A stretch of 64,000 bases of DNA from positions 1 to 64,000 of the forward strand of contig NZ_SNWE01000006.1 in assembly GCF_004362395.1 (NCBI RefSeq), in the 5' to 3' direction. This DNA is from Salegentibacter sp. 24. GTDB taxonomy: Bacteria > Bacteroidota > Bacteroidia > Flavobacteriales > Flavobacteriaceae. The stretch's first letter is position 1, and each line of letters begins with the position of its first letter. Under the pieces are notes generated by a model that worked only from the letters and a program-made list of their open reading frames with translations, was not told the origin of the DNA and did not search any database. Shown piece after piece: positions 45,822-61,549 of the stretch. The translations under genes were made by a program, and so were the position numbers.

Positions 45822-48023
45822 TTAGTTATTTTTAGTTTTTGAAACTTCTATATCGTTTACTTTAATATCAGTTCCCAGGCGCTGTAAATAAGCGATAAGG
45901 GCTACTATTTCACGGTTTCGCATTGCTACAAACTCGGTATCATTTTGCTCCGCAAATTCTTTTTCAGCTTCATATGTCTTAACGAAGTCTGGATCTGCAT
46001 ATAAGTTTTTCTCAATTTGAGTACCCTGATCTGCCATCCACTGCTGTGCATTTTCAATTTCCTCTAAAGTATAGGGTACACCTAACTTTTTAAGGACTCT
46101 CATCTTCTTTTGGGTATCGCTTTTGTCAAGTTCATCGGTAATTAACCATTTGTATGACGGCATAATAGAACCTGCCGAAGTACTCTGTGGATCGTACATA
46201 TGATTTAGGTGCCAGTTATCGGAATACTTTCCGCCAACACGCATAAGATCAGGCCCGGTACGCTTGCTGCCCCATAAGAAAGGATAATCGTAAACATATT
46301 CTCCAGCTTTAGAGTATTCACCATAGCGTTCTACTTCACTCCTAAATGGTCTAATCATTTGTGAATGGCAACCAACACAACCTTCACGAATATAGATATC
46401 CCGACCCTCTAACTCTAATGGCGTATAGGGTTTTACACTGGAAATAACCGGTACATATTCATCTACCATTAAAGAAGGTACAATTTGAACAATTCCACCT
46501 ATTAGAATCGCTATAGTTGCAAAAATGGTAAGTTTCACAGGTCTTCTTTCCAGCCAGGAATGGTAGGCTTCCCCTGAAGTTCTTTTTCGTGTTACTTTTT
46601 GAAGTGGCGCTGCTTCAGCCAGTTCATCTTCAACCGCGCTTCCCTGTCTTACCGTTCTAACAATATTATAAAGTAAAATAAAGGCTCCAATAATATATAA
46701 ACTACCACCTATTGCTCGCATCCAATACATGGGCATTATAGAAGTTACAGTCTCCAGAAAATTCCCATAGGTAAGGGTTCCGTCAGGATTAAATTGTTTC
46801 CACATAGAAGCTTGAACAAATCCGGCAACATACAATGGTAATGTATATATGATGATTCCCAGAGTTCCTATCCAGAAATGTGCATTGGCCAACTTTATAG
46901 AATATAGTTTTGTTTTAAATAATCTAGGTACTAACCAGTATACCATCCCGAAAGTTAAGAACCCATTCCAGGCTAAAGCACCAACGTGTACATGGGCAAT
47001 AATCCAGTCGCTAAAGTGTGCTATTGCATTTACATTTTTCAACGATAGCATTGGTCCTTCAAATGTAGCCATCCCGTAACCAGTAATAGCCACTACGAAA
47101 AATTTAAGAACAGGATCAGTTCGTACTTTATCCCAAGCACCCCGTAAGGTTAGAAGTCCATTGATCATACCTCCCCAGGAAGGAAACAATAGCATTACCG
47201 AAAATGCTACCCCCAGGTTTTGTGCCCAGTCCGGTAAAGTTGAATATAATAAATGGTGAGGTCCAGCCCAGATATAAATAAAAATCAGCGACCAGAAATG
47301 GATAATAGACAGTCGGTAAGAATAAACCGGTCTGTTGGCAGCCTTGGGAACAAAATAATACATTAAACCTAGGAATGGAGTTGTAAGAAAAAATGCCACC
47401 GCATTATGTCCGTACCACCATTGTACCAAAGCATCCTGAACACCTGAATATACCGAATAGCTCTTAAAGGCACTCACTGGAATTTCAATATTGTTAAAAA
47501 TATGAAGAACCGCTACGGTTACGAATGTGGCCAAATAAAACCAAATAGCAACATACAAATGCCGTTGCCTTCTTTTGATCATAGTACCTATAAGGTTGGC
47601 CCCAAAGGCAACCCAAACCAATGTAATAGCAATATCTATTGGCCATTCAAGTTCTGCGTATTCTTTAGAACTTGTAAAACCCATTGGGAGTGTGATCGCA
47701 GCGGAAACGATAATAGCCTGCCACCCCCAAAAGTTGAAATTACTTAAAAAATCACTATACATTCGGGCCTTCAGCAAGCGCTGCGTTGAATAATAAACCC
47801 CGGCGAAAATTGCATTTCCAACAAAAGCAAAGATGACCGCGTTGGTATGTAAAGGCCTTAAACGACCAAAACTTAACCAAGAAATTCCATCGGTTATATT
47901 GGGAAACAAAAACATAAGGGCCAGTAAAAGGCCTATACTCATACCTACAATGCCCCAGAAAATGGTAGCCATAGTAAACTTTTTTACGATCTTGTTATCG
48001 TAATGAAATTGTTCTATTTCCAT
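45822..48023 (-). CDS. ccoNO: CcoNO fusion: catalytic and monoheme subunits of cbb3 oxidase
   Basis: The 733-residue protein fuses CcoN and CcoO. The first 470 residues are the CcoN part with about 12 helices. It has heme and copper ligands in [34 protein letters not shown] and [13 protein letters not shown] (low-spin and high-spin heme His, CuB His). A linker (about 470-500) and one more helix lead to the CcoO part with the heme c motif [12 protein letters not shown]. The fusion is typical of Bacteroidota. It reduces O2 at very low oxygen and pumps protons. Confidence 0.96.
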
Positions 48024-50753: not shown

Positions 50754-52079
50754 TTAATTTCCATTACCAATTTTTCGCAAATAGAAGTATCCAACTATAC
50801 CGGCAAGAAGGGAGGCTAAAAAAATTCCGGTTTTTGCTTGGGCTAAATAATTTTCATTTTTAAAGGCGAGTTCGGTAATAAATAGGGACATGGTGAAACC
50901 TATGCCCCCAAGAAAACCAATGCCATAGACATGCTTCCATTTCACTTTATGGGGAAGTGCTGCAATTTTAAACCAAACCAAAAGTCTTGAGAATAACACA
51001 ATACCCACAAATTTTCCAAAAATAAGCCCTAAAATCACACCAATACTTACCGTACTTAGCATTCCATCAAAAGAAGCTTTTTCGAAGCTAACTCCTGCAT
51101 TAGCGAAGGCAAAGATTGGTAAGATCACAAAACTAACAAATGGATAAAGAGCGTGCTCTAAGCGCTGAAGTGGGGGAGTGGCATCCTCGGTTAATGATGA
51201 GAATTTTTCTATGTTATGGGTAATTCGTTCTTCAGCTTCTTTTGGGTTTTTCTTTTTACTTCTAAATTCCTGTTGAATTTCATAGGATATTAGTTTAGTT
51301 TTTCGAAGGAACAAAGGCGTATTGATACGTTTGGTATTTGGAATAGCAAAAGCGGCCAAAACAGCTGCAATGGTAGCGTGAACACCAGAAAGTAAAATGG
51401 CTAACCATAACCCACCTATTCCCATAACCGCATAAAAAAGTGTATTTCTAATTCCGATGAGGTTGGCTGTTGCCAGGATGAGTAAAAATACACTGGCCAT
51501 GGCGAGACTTTGTACAGAAATATCTGAGGTATAAAAGAATGCAATGATTAATACTGCACCAAGATCGTCTACAATTGCAATGGCCGTTAAAAAAATTTTC
51601 AAAGGTAAAGGAACGCGATCTCCGAGTAAGAAAAGAATACCTAAGGCAAAGGCGATATCCGTTGCCATGGGAATACCCCAGCCCGAAACAGAATCCAAAC
51701 CGGAATTAAAATAGTAATAAATAAGTGCGGGAAAAAGCATTCCTCCCAGGGCTGCTCCAACTGGAAGTATAGCTTTATTAAAACTTGAAAGTTCACCCTG
51801 TAAAATTTCTCGTTTTAATTCCAGACCAATCATAAAAAAGAAAATCGACATCAGGCCGTCGTTAATCCAGTGAAGCAGATTTTTCTTTATAACAAATTCG
51901 TTTACTCCAATATGAATGTATTGTTTCCAGAGATTGTGGTAAGCATCAGCAAGGGGAGAATTTGCCACGAGCATGGCCAGCAAGGCAGAGAAGATGAGTA
52001 GTAAACCAACAGAAGTTTTTTTCTCAATAAAATTTTTAATTGGCAATAGCAGGTAGGTATCAAGGTGGGATTTTTTCAT
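50754..52079 (-). CDS. nhaA: NhaA sodium/proton antiporter
   Basis: NhaA exchanges 2 H+ for 1 Na+ and keeps pH and sodium balance. The 441 residues hold about 12 helices with the family motif GWGIPMATDIAFALGIL and IAIVDDLGAVLII, which contains the two adjacent Asp residues of the ion site, and SLFITELAF near the end. An early segment (KKNLLHWINDGLMSIFFFMIGLELKREI) is the usual cytoplasmic/periplasmic helix. It lies 74 bases downstream of ccoI's start region on the same strand but transcribed toward ccoI. Its promoter shares the Crp/Fnr-type layout. Confidence 0.96.
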   Translation of the reverse strand: MKKSHLDTYLLLPIKNFIEKKTSVGLLLIFSALLAMLVANSPLADAYHNLWKQYIHIGVNEFVIKKNLLHWINDGLMSIFFFMIGLELKREILQGELSSFNKAILPVGAALGGMLFPALIYYYFNSGLDSVSGWGIPMATDIAFALGILFLLGDRVPLPLKIFLTAIAIVDDLGAVLIIAFFYTSDISVQSLAMASVFLLILATANLIGIRNTLFYAVMGIGGLWLAILLSGVHATIAAVLAAFAIPNTKRINTPLFLRKTKLISYEIQQEFRSKKKNPKEAEERITHNIEKFSSLTEDATPPLQRLEHALYPFVSFVILPIFAFANAGVSFEKASFDGMLSTVSIGVILGLIFGKFVGIVLFSRLLVWFKIAALPHKVKWKHVYGIGFLGGIGFTMSLFITELAFKNENYLAQAKTGIFLASLLAGIVGYFYLRKIGNGN

Positions 52080-52165: not shown

Positions 52166-52313
52166 GTTTATTAATAAAATGAAATCCAAATAATTTTGTA
52201 ATCAGGATTTGATTCTGTCGATTTTTATACTAACTTAAATAACCCGCTTGATTAGATTTTAATTATTCCTAAAAAACAAAACTTTGCTACCTTTAGACCT
52301 ACAAAAAAAGACA

Positions 52314-53390
52314 ATGGTAAAAAAATTAACCAAAAATTTCCTTAGGCCCAAGATGAAATCTGTCAACCAGCCGCCGGGAACGGTAACTTATGTTGGAAAA
52401 AAAGAATCCAGTGAAACCAAGCTTGAAGTTATAGATTACAATAAAGATAATTATGAAAAGTTTACTTCCTCCTCACCTGAAGATGCTTTTAAATTTGAAG
52501 CCGAGGATCGAATAACCTGGTTTAATATTGACGGCTTAAGCAATACTGAGGAAATCGAAAAACTTGGTAAATATTACGATCTTCATCCTTTAATCATTGA
52601 AGACATAGTTAATACCACCCAACGTCCAAAAATAGATGAGTATGAAGACTATTTATTTATCGTTGCAAAAATGCTTTATTACCAGAATGGCCAGTTGGTC
52701 AATGAGCATATAAGTTTTGTTTTAGGTAAGGACTACGTTTTAAGCTTTCAGGAAGCCGGTGGTGATGTTTTTGATGGCGTACGTGGGAGGCTGGAAAAGG
52801 CATATGGTCGCATCCGTACCAATGGTTCAGATTACCTGGTTTTTGCCCTTCTAGATGCTATTGTTGATCATTATTTCCTTGTTGTAGATGAGCTGAGTGA
52901 GAAAGTAGAAAATTTGGAAGAACAGTTATTTGAAAGTCAGCCAAGCGATGATATTACTTATGAGATACAGGAACTCAAAAGGTCTATCCTAAGAGTTAGA
53001 CGGGCAGTTTTCCCTCTTAAAGAAGTGATTTCAAGATTTCAAAATTTGGAAAATGATCTTATAAAAACAAGAACCAAAAACTATATAAACGATCTACACG
53101 ATCATATTCTGCAGGTTTCGGAAAATATAGATCTGTATCGTGAGATGGCCTGGGGACTTATGGATATGTATATGACAACCATTAGCAATAAAATGAATGA
53201 GGTGATGAAGGTATTAACCATAATGGCTTCTATATTCATTCCCCTGACCTTTATTGCCGGTATTTACGGAATGAATTTTGAGTACATTCCAGAGCTTCAA
53301 TGGAAATATAGCTATTTCGTACTTTGGGGAATTATGATCACTATATTTATTCTGATGATTTATTATTTTAAACGAAAAAACTGGCTTTAA
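52314..53390 (+). CDS. corA: CorA family magnesium/cobalt transporter
   Basis: CorA is the pentameric Mg2+ channel. I chose ATG 52314 (MVKKLTKNFLRPK, 358 aa), since the earlier in-frame start at 52284 overlaps a TACCTTTA box (52288-52295) and adds non-homologous residues. The long cytoplasmic domain (about 40-280) is followed by two C-terminal membrane helices. The signature YGMN occurs at the end of the first helix (FIAGIYGMNFEYIPEL). The C-terminus is basic (KRKNWL). It is divergent from nhaA and followed 7 bases later by a lactonase-like gene. Confidence 0.94.
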   Translation: MVKKLTKNFLRPKMKSVNQPPGTVTYVGKKESSETKLEVIDYNKDNYEKFTSSSPEDAFKFEAEDRITWFNIDGLSNTEEIEKLGKYYDLHPLIIEDIVNTTQRPKIDEYEDYLFIVAKMLYYQNGQLVNEHISFVLGKDYVLSFQEAGGDVFDGVRGRLEKAYGRIRTNGSDYLVFALLDAIVDHYFLVVDELSEKVENLEEQLFESQPSDDITYEIQELKRSILRVRRAVFPLKEVISRFQNLENDLIKTRTKNYINDLHDHILQVSENIDLYREMAWGLMDMYMTTISNKMNEVMKVLTIMASIFIPLTFIAGIYGMNFEYIPELQWKYSYFVLWGIMITIFILMIYYFKRKNWL

Positions 53391-54990: not shown

Positions 54991-55911
54991 TTATCTGCTT
55001 TCAACTTCCTGAATAACAAAAAATCCATCATTTCCCTGAGCCTGATAAAGCGGCATAAAAATCCTGCCCTCCCATTGGCTTTTGACTTCTTTGCCATTGT
55101 GTTTTGCGAGAAGTTCTCCTTTTTTAATTTTCTGAAAATTCTCATATCCCGGTTGCATCTCAAAGACATCAGAGTCTTTAAGTCCTTGACGATGTACCAG
55201 TTCGAAAGTTTTTTGTGCCGGAGCATTCTTTTCTGTAAAACGGGTTACACATTCAGGGTAGGTTTGAATTTTTGAAATATCTAGTTTGCAAGCCTCCTTT
55301 AGGGCCAGCCAGATAACCCCTTCGTGATTTTCAACTGAAGTTTTATCTTCATGTTGTCCGGCTTCAAATACAAAGCCGGTCATGCCTATTCGGCTTAAGT
55401 AATGATCTATATCTCCGGTAATGATATCGCTAAATCCGCGTACGATATAGGTGGGAAAATTGTGCGCCCACATATCATTATCATTTACTTCCTGAACCGA
55501 AACATAGGGTAAACTTGCCGATGAAGTCGTGTGGCAGTCCAAGAAGTACCGTTTGGTGAAATCTTTTTCCGGAAATTGGTTTAAGATCTCTATGATCTGC
55601 CACATTTCTTTTTGTTCGTGGGTTATGGATTTTTTTTGTTCAATATTTTCTTTAGTCCAAACGCGGTTAAGGTCCTCATCTATATAACGCTTGTTCAGGT
55701 TAAGGGCTTTGTGATTACCGGATACCCCAACTATAGTCCCTTCAATTATTGGTTTGGTTTTTTCCAGCTGTTTAAATACTTCTTCCAAAGCTTTTACTCC
55801 ACTAGGCTCGTTGCCGTGAATTCCTGCAGTTACAAAAAGTAAAGGTCCTTTATTATTACTGGTATACTTCCCAATTATTCTGGGAATATTTTTGTTTGAT
55901 GGATTACTCAT
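54991..55911 (-). CDS. M14-type metallohydrolase (succinylglutamate desuccinylase/aspartoacylase family)
   Basis: The 306-residue soluble protein has the zinc site of the family: HGNEPSG (His32, Glu35) and LDCHTTS (His127). The substrate-binding Arg occurs in DLNR (about 80-83), and the catalytic Glu in VFEAGQHE (Glu183). A C-terminal beta domain (about 215-306) resembles that of AstE/aspartoacylase. The fold is that of M14 carboxypeptidases. The family hydrolyses an amide bond next to a carboxylate. It is the last gene of an operon with an ATP-grasp ligase and a DUF1704 peptidase; its true substrate is unknown. Confidence 0.92.
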   Translation of the reverse strand: MSNPSNKNIPRIIGKYTSNNKGPLLFVTAGIHGNEPSGVKALEEVFKQLEKTKPIIEGTIVGVSGNHKALNLNKRYIDEDLNRVWTKENIEQKKSITHEQKEMWQIIEILNQFPEKDFTKRYFLDCHTTSSASLPYVSVQEVNDNDMWAHNFPTYIVRGFSDIITGDIDHYLSRIGMTGFVFEAGQHEDKTSVENHEGVIWLALKEACKLDISKIQTYPECVTRFTEKNAPAQKTFELVHRQGLKDSDVFEMQPGYENFQKIKKGELLAKHNGKEVKSQWEGRIFMPLYQAQGNDGFFVIQEVESR

Positions 55912-55932
55912 AATGTATTTTTTCTATTCTTC

Positions 55933-56982
55933 TTATTCCATACAGGCGATTTCCCTGTTATCAAATTGATGGCCGTAAAGCACTTTATATTCCACCTTAC
56001 GTTCAATTGCTTCTATTACGGTACCAGTGAAATCCGGTAAACCAATATCCTTAAAATGCTCCATGCCTCCGGGGCTCAAAACATTGATTTCAATAAGTTT
56101 ATCTTTTACCACATCAAGACCAACGAAAAAAAGACCGTCACGGATTAGCTTGGGAGCGGTCAGATCTACAATTCGTTGCATTTCCGGGGTAAGGTCGCTA
56201 CTATCTGCAGTGGCACCCAATGCGAAATTACTCCGAAATTCACCTTCCCCACTTACACGCCTGATAATGGCCTGCTTACCATCTTTTACCATAACGCGAC
56301 CATTCATTAGAATAATTCTAACATCCCCATCTTTTACGGCTGGAAGGAACTCCTGAGCTATAACATAACCATCCTGACTAATGGTTTCAATTATCTGGTT
56401 GATGTTTTTTTCATTTTCATCAATAAGAAAAACGTTTTGGCCCCCGGATCCTTCTAAAGGCTTCAAAACAATTTTCTTATTGTTCTTTTCCCAAAACCTC
56501 AAAATATCTTCCTTGTTTCTGGTTATTAAAGAATCTGGCTTTATTTCCTGAGGAAGTTCTTCAAAATAAAGTTTATCAATAAAGGCATGGGATAGGGCAT
56601 AGGCATCATTCAACACTAAAACTCCCTGTTGCTGCATCATTCTTCCAAAAGCAACTCCCGCTTGCTCTGCCCATTCCCGGCCAGAATCCTCTTCTGTAGG
56701 ATTATTCCTAATAAAAAGCACGTCCAGTTTTGTTGACTGAATTCTCTTTTTTCTGGCTTTGGAACTCTGTAAAGCTTCCAGAAACTTTTTAGGAGATTTT
56801 GTTTTTGTGTTTTTAGGCACTTGAGTACTATTTATACTTATAGGAGCATCATGGTGGAAGTTGAAATCACCAACCCCCATAGCATACACTTCGTGGCCCC
56901 GAGCGTGGGCAGTGGTCATTAACATTACCGATGTTCCACAGCTCTCATTTTCAATATCGTTTAATACAAAGCAAATCTTCAT
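55933..56982 (-). CDS. Glutathione synthetase-like ATP-grasp ligase
   Basis: The 349-residue protein has the ATP-grasp fold: an N-terminal Rossmann-like part (MKICFVLNDI), the lid and ATP site VLKPLEGSGGQNVFLI (about 172-187), AQEFLPAVKDGDVRIILMNGR (about 209-229), the GEFRSNFALGA loop, and the Mg-binding GLDVVKDKLIEINVLSPGG (Glu298, Asn300). It resembles GshB. Such ligases join a carboxylate to an amine via acyl phosphate; here the partners are unknown. It overlaps the upstream DUF1704 gene by 4 bases (ATGA) and lies 21 bases before the M14-type gene. Confidence 0.93.
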   Translation of the reverse strand: MKICFVLNDIENESCGTSVMLMTTAHARGHEVYAMGVGDFNFHHDAPISINSTQVPKNTKTKSPKKFLEALQSSKARKKRIQSTKLDVLFIRNNPTEEDSGREWAEQAGVAFGRMMQQQGVLVLNDAYALSHAFIDKLYFEELPQEIKPDSLITRNKEDILRFWEKNNKKIVLKPLEGSGGQNVFLIDENEKNINQIIETISQDGYVIAQEFLPAVKDGDVRIILMNGRVMVKDGKQAIIRRVSGEGEFRSNFALGATADSSDLTPEMQRIVDLTAPKLIRDGLFFVGLDVVKDKLIEINVLSPGGMEHFKDIGLPDFTGTVIEAIERKVEYKVLYGHQFDNREIACME

Positions 56983-58826
56983 TTTGTTATCATTTGTGAT
57001 AGGGGTAATCCCTCTCTGATTAGGTTTAATTTGTTGGTAATATTCTCGGTTAATAAATAACTTGGACGCAATGCGCCAGTTTTTAATACTTTTCTTTCGG
57101 TTAACTCTTCAATAATTTTGGTGTGTTTTAATCCGAATTTTCCAGCTAGTAAAGGTTCATATTCCCCTCCATTTTGAAGATGGTCACGAAGCTGTACCAA
57201 GCCTTTTAGATAAATAATATCTTTCAGAAATCCACCTCCCTGCATAATTCTGGAAGTAATATTAAATGCTCTTTCGGCAGAAAATCCATAATCCATTTTT
57301 AGTAATCTGAAAAGTTGTGGAAACTCGGCTCCTTCCATTAAAGCAGATCCCGCAATTACCCTTCCGGCAAGCGTTCGTAACCTATTAGCTGTAAGCCCGT
57401 CTACTAAATATTCAGACATCACTGCAAGTCCTTCTTGAAGTGGATCATAGTCGGCAAGCCCACTACTGAGTAACTCTAAAGGTTGACGTGTTCCGTTGTA
57501 ATGGGTAAGCACATGAGTTCCTACTTCGTGTTGAATAAGTGCTGTGGCCTCTGTTTTATTCATGTTATAATCCGCTGGCACATATAATTCACCATTGTTA
57601 ACCATCATAATATTCACGTCTTTTCGGATGTGAACTTTACTTTTGAAATTTTTGTCCTGTTCTGCAAAATAATCGAACTCCCGACGGGCAAGACTACTAA
57701 AGCCTTTAGCATCTATTATTTCTGTATTTCCAGAGGTTTCAGCTTCATCTACTTCCCGTAGTATTTTTCCTGCTTCCTGACTTAATTTCGGGCTTAAGCC
57801 TTTGTAAAGCCGGATACTATTATAAAAGAAATTAGAGGTCCCTCGCTCACTTAACATAGTAATTTGCTGATCCAGCTCTTCCCGCTTTTCCCTGAAAATA
57901 TGCGACATCGCCGGATCGTCTATTTCTTCAATTTTAAGATTATAAAGTTCTCTTTTTAAAAGATCCGGATCTATTGGAAGCAAGCGATAGTGGTAGTCTA
58001 ATACTTTTTCGTAGTTACTTTCAAAAAAAGTGTTTTTAATATCTTGGATATTCGCAGGCGAGACCAACCATAAAAACTGATAAGAACGCTCTATTTTGGC
58101 CAAAGCTTTATCTACTTCGAATACTTTTTCTTTAAGGTGCTTTCGTCCCAGAGCCAAATAACTTCCTACGCCACTGGTGGTTTGAACCCTAACATAATCA
58201 AAAATCGCCTTATGAATACAGGTTATAAGATAATCTTTAAACTCTCTGAGGAAAACAGGGTAGAGTTCATTATTCTCATCACGGTAAACCGGTGGAATTT
58301 CAAGACCTACGATTACAGCTCCTGATTTTTTTGCTTCCTCAATGCTTAAAAGTTCCTGATCGCCCTCTTTTTGACGATTAGGGGTATCTTTAATTTCAGC
58401 TTTTAAATAAAGTCCAGAAAAGGATTCATTTATTTTATTAAGTTCTCTTTCCAAAACCTTTACCGAGGTTGGTAATTTTTGTGCAGGCGCTTTTATTGTG
58501 AAACAATTGTTTGGTTCACCTGTATAAATCTCAAAAATCATATAAGATTTAAAATCTGAAGACAGCTTATCGGAAAGGGCGTATATCAGTTTCTGGTAAG
58601 CTTCAAAAAACTTATCCCCAATAAGTAAATAGGAAGCCTCACTAATAATTATTCTCTCGGTACCAATATCGTTCTGCTTTTTTCGATATACCACCAGGTA
58701 AGGTAAATTATCCTCTATATGGATTAAGCCCCCACCGGGAAGAGTAGCCCCTATTTTCCCGTCTTCTTCAAGGATTGTTAAAATTTGTTTAATTGATTTC
58801 TCCGATAATTCAGATATCTCCAGCAT
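56979..58826 (-). CDS. DUF1704 / MATCAP-like metallopeptidase (QEGLA motif)
   Basis: The 615-residue protein belongs to DUF1704, in databases 'flavohemoglobin expression-modulating QEGLA motif protein'. The zinc site is HEVGTH (433-438), the third ligand candidate is Glu465 in QEGLA (464-468), and the family's NxTRQ follows at 444. The same HExxxH arrangement is found in human MATCAP, a tubulin tyrosine carboxypeptidase. The N-terminal 350 residues are helical and not recognised. It is the first gene of the operon and is coupled by ATGA to the ATP-grasp gene. I see no -7 box upstream, so the promoter is unknown. Confidence 0.93.
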   Translation of the reverse strand: MLEISELSEKSIKQILTILEEDGKIGATLPGGGLIHIEDNLPYLVVYRKKQNDIGTERIIISEASYLLIGDKFFEAYQKLIYALSDKLSSDFKSYMIFEIYTGEPNNCFTIKAPAQKLPTSVKVLERELNKINESFSGLYLKAEIKDTPNRQKEGDQELLSIEEAKKSGAVIVGLEIPPVYRDENNELYPVFLREFKDYLITCIHKAIFDYVRVQTTSGVGSYLALGRKHLKEKVFEVDKALAKIERSYQFLWLVSPANIQDIKNTFFESNYEKVLDYHYRLLPIDPDLLKRELYNLKIEEIDDPAMSHIFREKREELDQQITMLSERGTSNFFYNSIRLYKGLSPKLSQEAGKILREVDEAETSGNTEIIDAKGFSSLARREFDYFAEQDKNFKSKVHIRKDVNIMMVNNGELYVPADYNMNKTEATALIQHEVGTHVLTHYNGTRQPLELLSSGLADYDPLQEGLAVMSEYLVDGLTANRLRTLAGRVIAGSALMEGAEFPQLFRLLKMDYGFSAERAFNITSRIMQGGGFLKDIIYLKGLVQLRDHLQNGGEYEPLLAGKFGLKHTKIIEELTERKVLKTGALRPSYLLTENITNKLNLIREGLPLSQMITK

Positions 58827-60241: not shown

Positions 60242-61549
60242 TCATAGATTCTTTCCAGGCGTGTTAACTGTATCTTTTTTAATGAGATAATCTCGAATAT
60301 CATCTCCCGAGGGTGCTTCGAATAATTGAAGATCAAAAAAGGAAACGGCAGCAATAACGTGGTCAAAAATATCCGCAGTAATGTATTCAAAATTTTCCCA
60401 GCGTTTATCCCGGCTAAAACATAGAATCTCTAAAGGGATTCCGTGTTCCGTAGGCTGCAAATGTCGCACAATAATGTACATTTCTTTGTGAACAGCGGAG
60501 TGATTGTTTAAATAAGTATCTATATACTTTCTAAAAATACCTAAGTTCGTTTGGTTTCTTCCGTTAAGGGGTAACTTGGTATCCACTTTATTTGTTTTAT
60601 TATACTCGTTTATTTCTTGTTGCCTTTCTTCAAGGTACGTTGAAATTAACTGGATGTTTTTAAATTTTTCAAAATCTTCCGGAGTGATAAATTTTACAGA
60701 ATTCTGCTTAATAAAAATTGAACGTTTAATTCTTCTTCCTGGAGATTCCTGCATCCCCCGCCAGTTTTGAAAAGATTCAGAAATTAGACTGTAGGTAGGG
60801 ATGGATGTAAAGGTATTATCGAAATTCTGAACTCTAACTGTGGCCAGGGTAATTTCAGTCACGGTACCATCGGCACCATATTTACTAAAGGTAATCCAGT
60901 CTCCAATTCTCACTATATCGTTAACAGTAACCTGAATAGAAGCTACAAACCCTAAAATAGTATCTTTAAAGATTAATAATAGGATGGCAGAGGCCGCACC
61001 CAAAGAAATAATAAATTTAAGAACATCTTTTTGGGTAAGCTCTGCGACTATAAATAATAAAGCAAAAAGCCAGACAATGATCATCACTACCTGTATATAG
61101 CTTTCCACAGGTTTATCCTGGAAGTTTTCTAAGGTTTTCAAATAGCCTTTTGTCGTCCGTAATAGACTTCTAATAATCCAAACTATAAGTAATATGATAT
61201 AAATGTCTATCAGGTAAAAGAATGCTTTAATGGCTAATGGAAAATCCACTAGAATATAAGGTAGCGAGAGATAGACTATAATAATCGGGAGTATCTGACC
61301 TATATATTTAGGAAACTTTGTCTTAATAAGAAAATCGTCAAAAGTAGTTTGTGTCTTGTTACTGAAGGTTTTAAAGGCTTCGATCACAAATGTTTTTATC
61401 AGATAATTTAAACCGATAATCAGAAGGATCAGGATTAAAAGATTGAGGAGTAAATTAAAATAAAGGGCGACTGTGGGGTTTACACCCTGGTCAATGAGAA
61501 AAGTTTCAAAAAGACAAATTAGGTTTTTAAATCCTTCCGATAAGTTCAT
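60242..61549 (-). CDS. Mechanosensitive ion channel (MscS family, YbdG-like)
   Basis: The 435-residue protein has five predicted helices (about 20-215). The MscS pore helix and beta domain follow (about 180-280: LKFIISLGAASAILLLIFKDTILGFVASIQVTVNDIVRIGDWITF), with GADGTVTEITLATVRVQNFDN, and a long C-terminal domain. The length and the extended C-terminus are closer to YbdG than MscS. Such channels open on osmotic downshift. It begins 3 bases after the DUF3817 gene on the same strand. Confidence 0.93.
   Translation of the reverse strand: MNLSEGFKNLICLFETFLIDQGVNPTVALYFNLLLNLLILILLIIGLNYLIKTFVIEAFKTFSNKTQTTFDDFLIKTKFPKYIGQILPIIIVYLSLPYILVDFPLAIKAFFYLIDIYIILLIVWIIRSLLRTTKGYLKTLENFQDKPVESYIQVVMIIVWLFALLFIVAELTQKDVLKFIISLGAASAILLLIFKDTILGFVASIQVTVNDIVRIGDWITFSKYGADGTVTEITLATVRVQNFDNTFTSIPTYSLISESFQNWRGMQESPGRRIKRSIFIKQNSVKFITPEDFEKFKNIQLISTYLEERQQEINEYNKTNKVDTKLPLNGRNQTNLGIFRKYIDTYLNNHSAVHKEMYIIVRHLQPTEHGIPLEILCFSRDKRWENFEYITADIFDHVIAAVSFFDLQLFEAPSGDDIRDYLIKKDTVNTPGKNL

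Follow-up and report, generated by a model that had tools for sequence, protein, structure and literature searches.

The system described here is a three-gene operon in the window, the whole stretch of 64,000 nucleotides that was analyzed (Salegentibacter sp. 24, contig NZ_SNWE01000006.1, positions 1 to 64,000), which encodes a DUF1704/MATCAP-type zinc peptidase, an ATP-grasp ligase and a predicted AstE/AspA-type zinc amidohydrolase. It is a further case of a type already known, the module that combines an ATP-grasp ligase with a peptidase, and a 2009 survey of ATP-grasp amidoligase-peptidase operons by Iyer et al. is said to have proposed ligase/peptidase neighborhoods as a general principle. 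The reading we favor, tentatively and at somewhat less than an even chance, is that bacteria share a conserved peptide ligase/hydrolase module, that the operon is its version in the Salegentibacter clade, and that the module acts on a small acidic peptide or an N-acyl-Glu/Asp compound.

Human MATCAP/TMCP1 (KIAA0895L; PDB 7z5g) and TMCP2 share with the DUF1704 protein of the window the Pfam family, the HExxxH and EGLA site, the KDxxYLxG motif and the fold, but their target is tubulin tails and the sequence match of the window protein to them is marginal. To our knowledge, neither a ligase partner gene nor a domain of the N-formylglutamate amidohydrolase (FGase) type is known for the human proteins. 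The rim locus (RimB-RimK) likewise has an ATP-grasp ligase and hydrolases in one operon, and in its RimB-RimK-AstE-type form an AstE/AspA-family enzyme, but the ligase subfamily differs and a PF05618 protease stands where the window operon has DUF1704. An operon of that form is the third ligase/hydrolase module of the window genome (L097, contig C2, 4616-6894, minus strand), with a PF05618 (RimB-like) protease, RimK and an AstE/AspA-like enzyme. Another operon of the same genome (L075, contig C16, 5733-9088) encodes, in tandem, an RLAN-RimK ATP-grasp protein, a GCS2 ligase and an FGase, the first junction being a gap of 3 bases and the second an overlap of 4; it resembles the module described here in combining an ATP-grasp ligase with an FGase, but has a GCS2 ligase and lacks DUF1704. 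Glutathione synthetase GshB (1gsa) has active-site residues in common with the window ligase, although the window protein falls under the GshB equivalog cut-offs and 8 of the 11 operon genomes surveyed lacked both of the partner Glu-Cys ligase families searched. The rlo operon of Pseudomonas also combines an ATP-grasp protein with a peptidase that cuts poly-Glu, and it matters at low osmolarity, but there the partners are a secreted retropepsin and a membrane transglutaminase-like protein, and the available text mentions neither DUF1704 nor FGase (PMC12239564).

An earlier examination of the window from its sequence alone (the original prediction) described three tightly coupled genes and likened them to the enzymes that edit tubulin tails. 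The coupling was confirmed in the open reading frames of the window: all three genes lie on one strand, the DUF1704 stop and the ligase start share the letters ATGA, and the AstE-like gene begins after a gap of 21 bases. Pfam and NCBIfam also agreed with the families that had been named (DUF1704, glutathione synthetase-like ATP-grasp, aspartoacylase/M14-fold), and the proposal that hydrolases work together with an ATP-grasp ligase is supported. The features are as follows.

56979..58826, minus strand: DUF1704/MATCAP-type zinc peptidase gene (615 amino acids; open reading frame and Pfam match)
58107..58826, minus strand: FGase-like N-terminal domain without zinc-site motifs (residues 1-240 of the DUF1704 protein)
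57027..58031, minus strand: MATCAP catalytic domain (residues 266-600; Pfam match)
57513..57530, minus strand: HEVGTH zinc/catalytic motif (residues 433-438; HExxxH in 40 of 40 DUF1704 proteins, 39 of them distinct)
57423..57437, minus strand: QEGLA motif (residues 464-468), its Glu the presumed third zinc ligand (QEG[LI]A in 40 of 40)
57201..57224, minus strand: KDIIYLKG motif, counterpart of KDQVYLDG in human MATCAP (KDxxYLxG in 38 of 40)
55933..56982, minus strand: ATP-grasp amide ligase of the PRK12458 subfamily, GshB/RimK-like (349 amino acids; NF009110 profile)
54991..55911, minus strand: predicted AstE/AspA-type M14-fold zinc amidohydrolase, in the third slot (306 amino acids; PF24827)

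Gene order and strand were kept in 18 of 18 loci, these being the window and 17 named loci of Salegentibacter, Psychroflexus, Zunongwangia and Gillisia from a search that reached close relatives only. One further locus (L070, genome G053), apparently a duplicate of L050, was excluded from this count and included in the sets of 40 DUF1704 proteins and 36 ligases used below. The third gene of L057 and the DUF1704 gene of L059 were each present as two open reading frames, and L059 was excluded from the 40-protein set. The window DUF1704 protein was 91-93% identical to proteins of seven named Salegentibacter genomes.

The DUF1704/MATCAP gene and the PRK12458 ligase gene form the conserved core of the operon. 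Among 198 genomes of the phylum, the window genome included, DUF1704 was found in 12, and 11 had an NF009110 match of at least 396 bits; of these matches, 10 exceeded the cut-off of 408 bits and one scored 396.5. The next NF009110 matches scored 215 bits (G194) and 194 bits (G076), both in genomes without DUF1704; weaker ATP-grasp matches were common, occurring in 84 genomes in all. In every one of the 11 strong-ligase genomes the ligase and DUF1704 were in one operon, as direct neighbors in eight; an FGase gene lay between them in G130 and G134, and an FGase gene, a rhodanese-type gene and a small gene in G088. Fisher's exact test gave p 3.5e-17 for the association, a value that serves only as a guide because the genomes are related and the test ignores phylogeny. 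The twelfth DUF1704 genome (G186, locus L060) had a solo gene with the zinc motif HEAYVH. Trees of the ligase and of DUF1704 split alike. Thus the co-occurrence that the original prediction called for was found for DUF1704 and the ligase (11 of 12 DUF1704 genomes), but the AstE-like gene was present in only two of the 11 operons.

The same pairing was found outside the phylum. DUF1704 was present in 127 plasmid-collection records, mostly from rhizobia, and the order FGase-DUF1704-ligase was annotated in six rhizobial-type plasmid regions (Pararhizobium, S. meliloti Ak57, Aminobacter, 'Roseateles' XES5, Mesorhizobium and Shinella, the last two, L105 and L106, having been chosen via the ligase) and was seen in S. 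fredii NGR234. Two loci were left out of this order count: L073 of S. medicae, with FGase and DUF1704 present and the ligase placed by coordinates, and L083 of S. meliloti 2011, with DUF1704 and ligase present and FGase not called by the open reading frame picker. The pSymB copy of S. meliloti 2011 (NC_020560) has DUF1704 at 1123853-1125658 and the ligase at 1125703-1126746. Of 39 plasmid ligase records (at least 37% identity, among the matches listed), 28 had DUF1704 adjoining by coordinates, compared by hand, two more had it when the locus was opened, and six were left undetermined. In Photobacterium the ligase gene overlapped an FGase-DUF1704 fusion in both loci seen. DUF1704 genes of Pseudoalteromonas, Legionella adelaidensis and Vibrio HDW18 had no ligase neighbor, and Phyllobacterium zundukense carried a decayed copy. 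The DUF1704 operon of Photobacterium DA100 and the DUF1704 fusion gene of Vibrio HDW18 were each preceded by genes for a LysR-type regulator and a DUF413 protein (L102, 4483-5848, and L076, 4144-5535). COG3930 is, we presume, the DUF1704 group. In Vibrio vulnificus, VV2_1203 (COG3930) and VV2_1204 (glutathione synthetase) are listed under consecutive tags (PMC3091676).

The window DUF1704 protein matched PF08014 MATCAP over residues 266-600 with E 4.4e-77 (260 bits, curated cut-off 27). The QEGLA hypothetical equivalog TIGR02421, with a cut-off of 339 bits, was passed by none of the window protein (295), L064 (337) and L061 (297). All 40 DUF1704 proteins, window included, had the HExxxH motif and the downstream Glu of the zinc site, and the two without KDxxYLxG were both solo forms. 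With these motifs and those of the ligase below, the catalytic parts of both proteins look live. The corresponding motifs of human MATCAP in the alignments were HEIGTH, EEGLA and KDQVYLDG, and PMC10499314, in the part available, reports that the equivalent Glu of the human proteins binds metal. Searches with phmmer from operon-type proteins reached MATCAP at E 3e-7 for L061, a short-form bacterial relative, 0.001 for the window protein and 0.007 for L102; L066 was non-significant (0.16), and the one solo form tried gave no match. The DUF1704 protein was found to have the MATCAP fold in a structure model; the models were built from alignments of close relatives (16 and 13 rows), and both are weak. 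The database name of DUF1704 is uninformative, yet the human relatives are tubulin carboxypeptidases.

Two solo DUF1704 proteins, L077 (5968-7248) and L078 (5737-7026), had the zinc motif HEGWxH and no KDxxYLxG motif, and the gene of L078 adjoined a glutamate racemase gene; these proteins form a separate clade, perhaps with a different function. Carriage of DUF1704 by phages was considered and set aside; there was one weak match, in Pseudomonas phage Y1 (OQ572403, 63452-64441; 26% identity, E 3e-10).

The original prediction gave the catalytic family of the DUF1704 protein correctly and overlooked a second domain, residues 1-240, for which a Pfam scan gave no match. This region looks like an FGase-type domain that has lost its zinc-site motifs; neither the window protein nor any of the 30 proteins in its clade had them. 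With a hidden Markov model (HMM) of the N-terminal family, seven of 14 FGases scored better than every decoy (best E 1.4e-7). Joining of an FGase-type unit to DUF1704 takes two forms, a motif-intact fusion in some lineages and a motif-less fusion together with a separate enzyme in others.

The third slot of the operon varies. In the 11 survey operons it was held by a separate FGase (PF05013) in eight, by one joined to the N-terminus of DUF1704 in a single operon (L063), and by an AstE-like protein in two, G000 (the window genome) and G053, both of the Salegentibacter clade. G053 had no FGase match anywhere in its genome, and the window genome had one only in another operon. The M14-fold partner of the original prediction is therefore correct for the Salegentibacter clade, and in other lineages a different hydrolase family has the slot; as a conserved partner of DUF1704 the AstE-like gene was rejected, with FGase in its place in nine of 11 operons. 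The window protein matched PF24827 AstE_AspA_cat (E 3e-19, 70 bits, cut-off 25) and had the motifs HGNE, DLNR, DCHTT and EAG (zinc/Arg/Glu), but was below the cut-offs of the aspartoacylase (60 of 180 bits) and succinylglutamate desuccinylase (58 of 306 bits) equivalogs. Motifs of the DLNR and D-x-H-[ST] types were common to the AstE-like and FGase sets, although a profile comparison of the two gave no sequence homology (E 0.38). Characterized members of the FGase and AstE/AspA families free Glu or Asp from N-acyl forms, and we read the third slot as one activity filled by two enzyme families.

Some match to the AstE-like alignment was present in 58 of the 198 genomes. Besides G000 and G053, 33 genomes had a near full-length match (E 5.2e-48 or better) that lay outside a DUF1704 operon by coordinates, including five DUF1704-operon genomes (G103, G118, G130, G134 and G171). 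In the four loci of such relatives that were opened (L098, L099, L100 and L101), a protein of 616-645 amino acids was encoded next to the AstE-like protein each time, which makes a conserved pair; these partners were alike by BLAST, and the one scanned had CBS domains.

The window ligase matched PF02955 GSH-S_ATP (E 2.3e-50) and passed NF009110, the PRK12458 profile (441 bits, cut-off 408). Its closest solved relative was GshB (1gsa, E 1.7e-37), and the positions aligned to GshB K125, K160, R210, R225, D273, E281 and N283, which we take to be active-site residues, did not vary among the 36 operon ligases compared, a set that includes a few duplicates. A loop with the letters EGEFRSN is RimK-like and unlike GGETRGN of E. 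coli GshB; other operon ligases vary here. Both GshB equivalog models scored the window ligase below cut-off (NF003573, 206 of 272 bits; TIGR01380, 193 of 299 bits). Of the Glu-Cys ligase families, PF04262 was found in none of the 12 DUF1704 genomes and PF04107 in four by profile search, so that 8 of the 11 operon genomes (8 of the 12 DUF1704 genomes) had neither, other Glu-Cys ligase families not having been searched. The window genome, without PF04262, had a single PF04107 gene, which lay inside the RLAN-ATP-grasp-GCS2-FGase operon; coordinates suggest that the PF04107 genes of G171 and G186 are in similar RLAN-type operons. Because eight of 11 operon genomes showed neither Glu-Cys ligase family searched, the operon ligase probably has a role other than glutathione synthesis. 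No TTL/TTLL profile was among the Pfam matches of the ligase at E 0.01 or better. The claim that exactly the enzyme types of tubulin editing were present was consequently not supported, the ligase being GshB/RimK-like rather than TTL and the third enzyme AstE/AspA-like rather than a cytosolic carboxypeptidase. The tubulin parallel is left with homology for DUF1704 alone, and the tubulin-style trio as a whole was rejected for two of the three genes by the family scans and the slot survey.

In the reading we favor, the PRK12458 ligase would activate a carboxylate with ATP and join it to an amino acid, making an amide on an acidic substrate; the DUF1704 protein, as a MATCAP-type zinc carboxypeptidase, would take off a C-terminal residue; and the FGase or AstE/AspA-like amidohydrolase would open a bond of the N-acyl-Glu/Asp type, freeing Glu or Asp. 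The families, the motifs, the coupling, the fusion and the exchange of the third gene are observed; each of these reactions, their order, the acidic substrate and the osmotic link discussed below are inferred. Rather than a protein tail, the likely substrate would be a metabolite of the cytoplasm that the enzymes build and trim there, either a small acidic peptide or an N-acyl-Glu/Asp compound. We infer its acidic nature from all three families together with a GltP-like cluster gene, one member of which was identified, that adjoins the ligase in five of the 11 survey operons. According to the parts of the papers available, chains of Glu at protein C-termini are shortened by human TMCPs (PMC10499314) and RimK adds Glu (PMC12239564). 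Coupling of the genes in a single message would fit sequential remodeling better than opposed on/off reactions, and the simple cycle of adding and removing a residue that had been proposed is awkward for the same reason.

The module may also be linked to the osmotic state of the cell. In RNA-seq of Photobacterium damselae RM-71, 'glutathione synthase GshB' A0J47_RS17020 was 38-fold up at 1% relative to 3% NaCl, the QEGLA protein RS17025 27-fold and RimK 52-fold, and the text available treats RS17020 as a GshB with a part in colonization (PMC10308900). RS17020 is likely the operon ligase, because the ligase overlaps the FGase-DUF1704 fusion in two other Photobacterium species. In Halomonas elongata, salt is reported to leave glutathione-synthesis genes unaffected (PMC9006882, available in part), which is neither for nor against this link. 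The window operon is flanked by genes for an NhaA-type antiporter (50754-52079), a CorA-type transporter (52284-53390) and an MscS-type channel (60242-61549); among the other nine Salegentibacter-labeled loci an MscS-type gene was present in eight and an NhaA-type gene in eight, and L061 also has an adjoining MscS-type gene. Such neighbors are hints toward an osmotic link and not proof. A decidedly unlikely extension of the idea is that at low external salt the ligase would tie up free glutamate, one of the main counter-ions of potassium, in an acidic oligopeptide, leaving fewer osmotic particles, and that a DUF1704-FGase complex would return the glutamate when salt rises. This would be a polyglutamylation-like cycle with a MATCAP cousin doing the trimming, and tubulin-tail trimming would have descended from a small-peptide osmotic system.

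A number of observations weigh against a conserved module of this kind. Among the 39 plasmid ligase records, two of Ensifer were absent from the DUF1704 matches listed, and one, on an Ensifer adhaerens plasmid (L104, 6001-7047), was a solo PRK12458-like ligase gene without adjoining DUF1704. Conversely, DUF1704 was without an adjoining ligase in L060, L077, L078 and the Vibrio L076 fusion. The species that supplied the low-salt data belongs to the other DUF1704 clade. The FGase homology of the N-terminal domain was weak by single methods: hhalign aligned 47 columns with P 5e-4, an HMM search in the reverse direction got no further than E 0.03, and the fold match to FGase was tied with another family in a model of mean predicted local distance difference test (pLDDT) score 60.5. 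Finally, the upstream-type ligases of L061 and L064 passed NF003573 (282 and 279 bits, cut-off 272), although both failed TIGR01380 (237 and 235 bits).

These NF003573 scores would suit a pathway to a thiol similar to glutathione or to a gamma-glutamyl peptide, in which the ligase is a plain or near-plain GshB, as would the match of its catalytic residues to GshB and the 'glutathione synthase' annotation of plasmid records. A plain glutathione synthetase was weighed and lowered on the below-cut-off equivalog scores of the window protein and the absence of both Glu-Cys ligase families searched from eight of 11 operon genomes, and with the PF04107 gene placed in another ligase operon in G000, and by coordinates in G171, such a pathway is very unlikely. 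Protein-tail editing, in which the ligase would add a residue to a protein C-terminus and DUF1704 and the M14-fold enzyme would remove it, has to be set against a third slot held by families generally known to act on small N-acyl amino acids, a closest solved ligase that presumably acts on a dipeptide, and a window genome that already has a separate RimB-RimK-AstE-type module; co-translation, too, would suit sequential steps over an on/off switch. We consider it unlikely, even though the human MATCAP/TMCP homolog is reported to trim protein C-termini including polyglutamate (PMC10499314) and RimK to modify ribosomal protein S6 (PMC12239564), as far as the available text goes.

The ratio of hydrolases to ligase, 2:1 in nine of the 11 survey operons when fused units are counted as two, and the GltP-like gene would both be expected of salvage only, with imported acidic or N-acyl peptides degraded and the ligase capping one product. 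However, L064 and L065 each have two ligases, and the joint strong induction of ligase and DUF1704 at low salt, as given in the available part of PMC10308900, would be unlike nutrient salvage, which makes this account improbable. ATP-grasp ligases make graspetides, according to the literature available, and a natural-product cluster similar to those for ribosomally synthesized and post-translationally modified peptides would have the ligase tie bonds in a small precursor that the peptidases mature. No short partner gene was common to the operon types among open reading frames of at least 90 amino acids, shorter ones not having been searched, and no exporter or typical tailoring enzyme was among the operon genes identified, so we regard such a cluster as highly improbable.

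The conserved pairing of DUF1704 with one ligase subfamily and a Glu/Asp-type amidohydrolase slot, as in the module we favor, offers a handle on the function of these bacterial enzymes, and the question of the substrate becomes testable. 'Glutathione synthase' annotations beside DUF1704, including the gene discussed for colonization (PMC10308900, available in part), are suggested for re-examination. Literature searches with terms for DUF1704, its family identifiers and PRK12458 listed no paper shown to describe the operon, subscription papers being mostly beyond reach. In the literature found, available in part, DUF1704 was named only for a Plasmodium gene (PMC3245289), PRK12458 was named in PMC3462692, and the PF08014 matches among the papers listed look like Plasmodium gene names.

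Two observations concern neighboring genes. A member of a DCC1-like thiol-disulfide oxidoreductase cluster, of which one was scanned, was encoded near the operon in L061, L062, L064, L065 and L067. Elsewhere in the window, at 45822-48023, an open reading frame of 733 amino acids resembles, as read by eye, cbb3 oxidase subunit I fused with a cytochrome c subunit.

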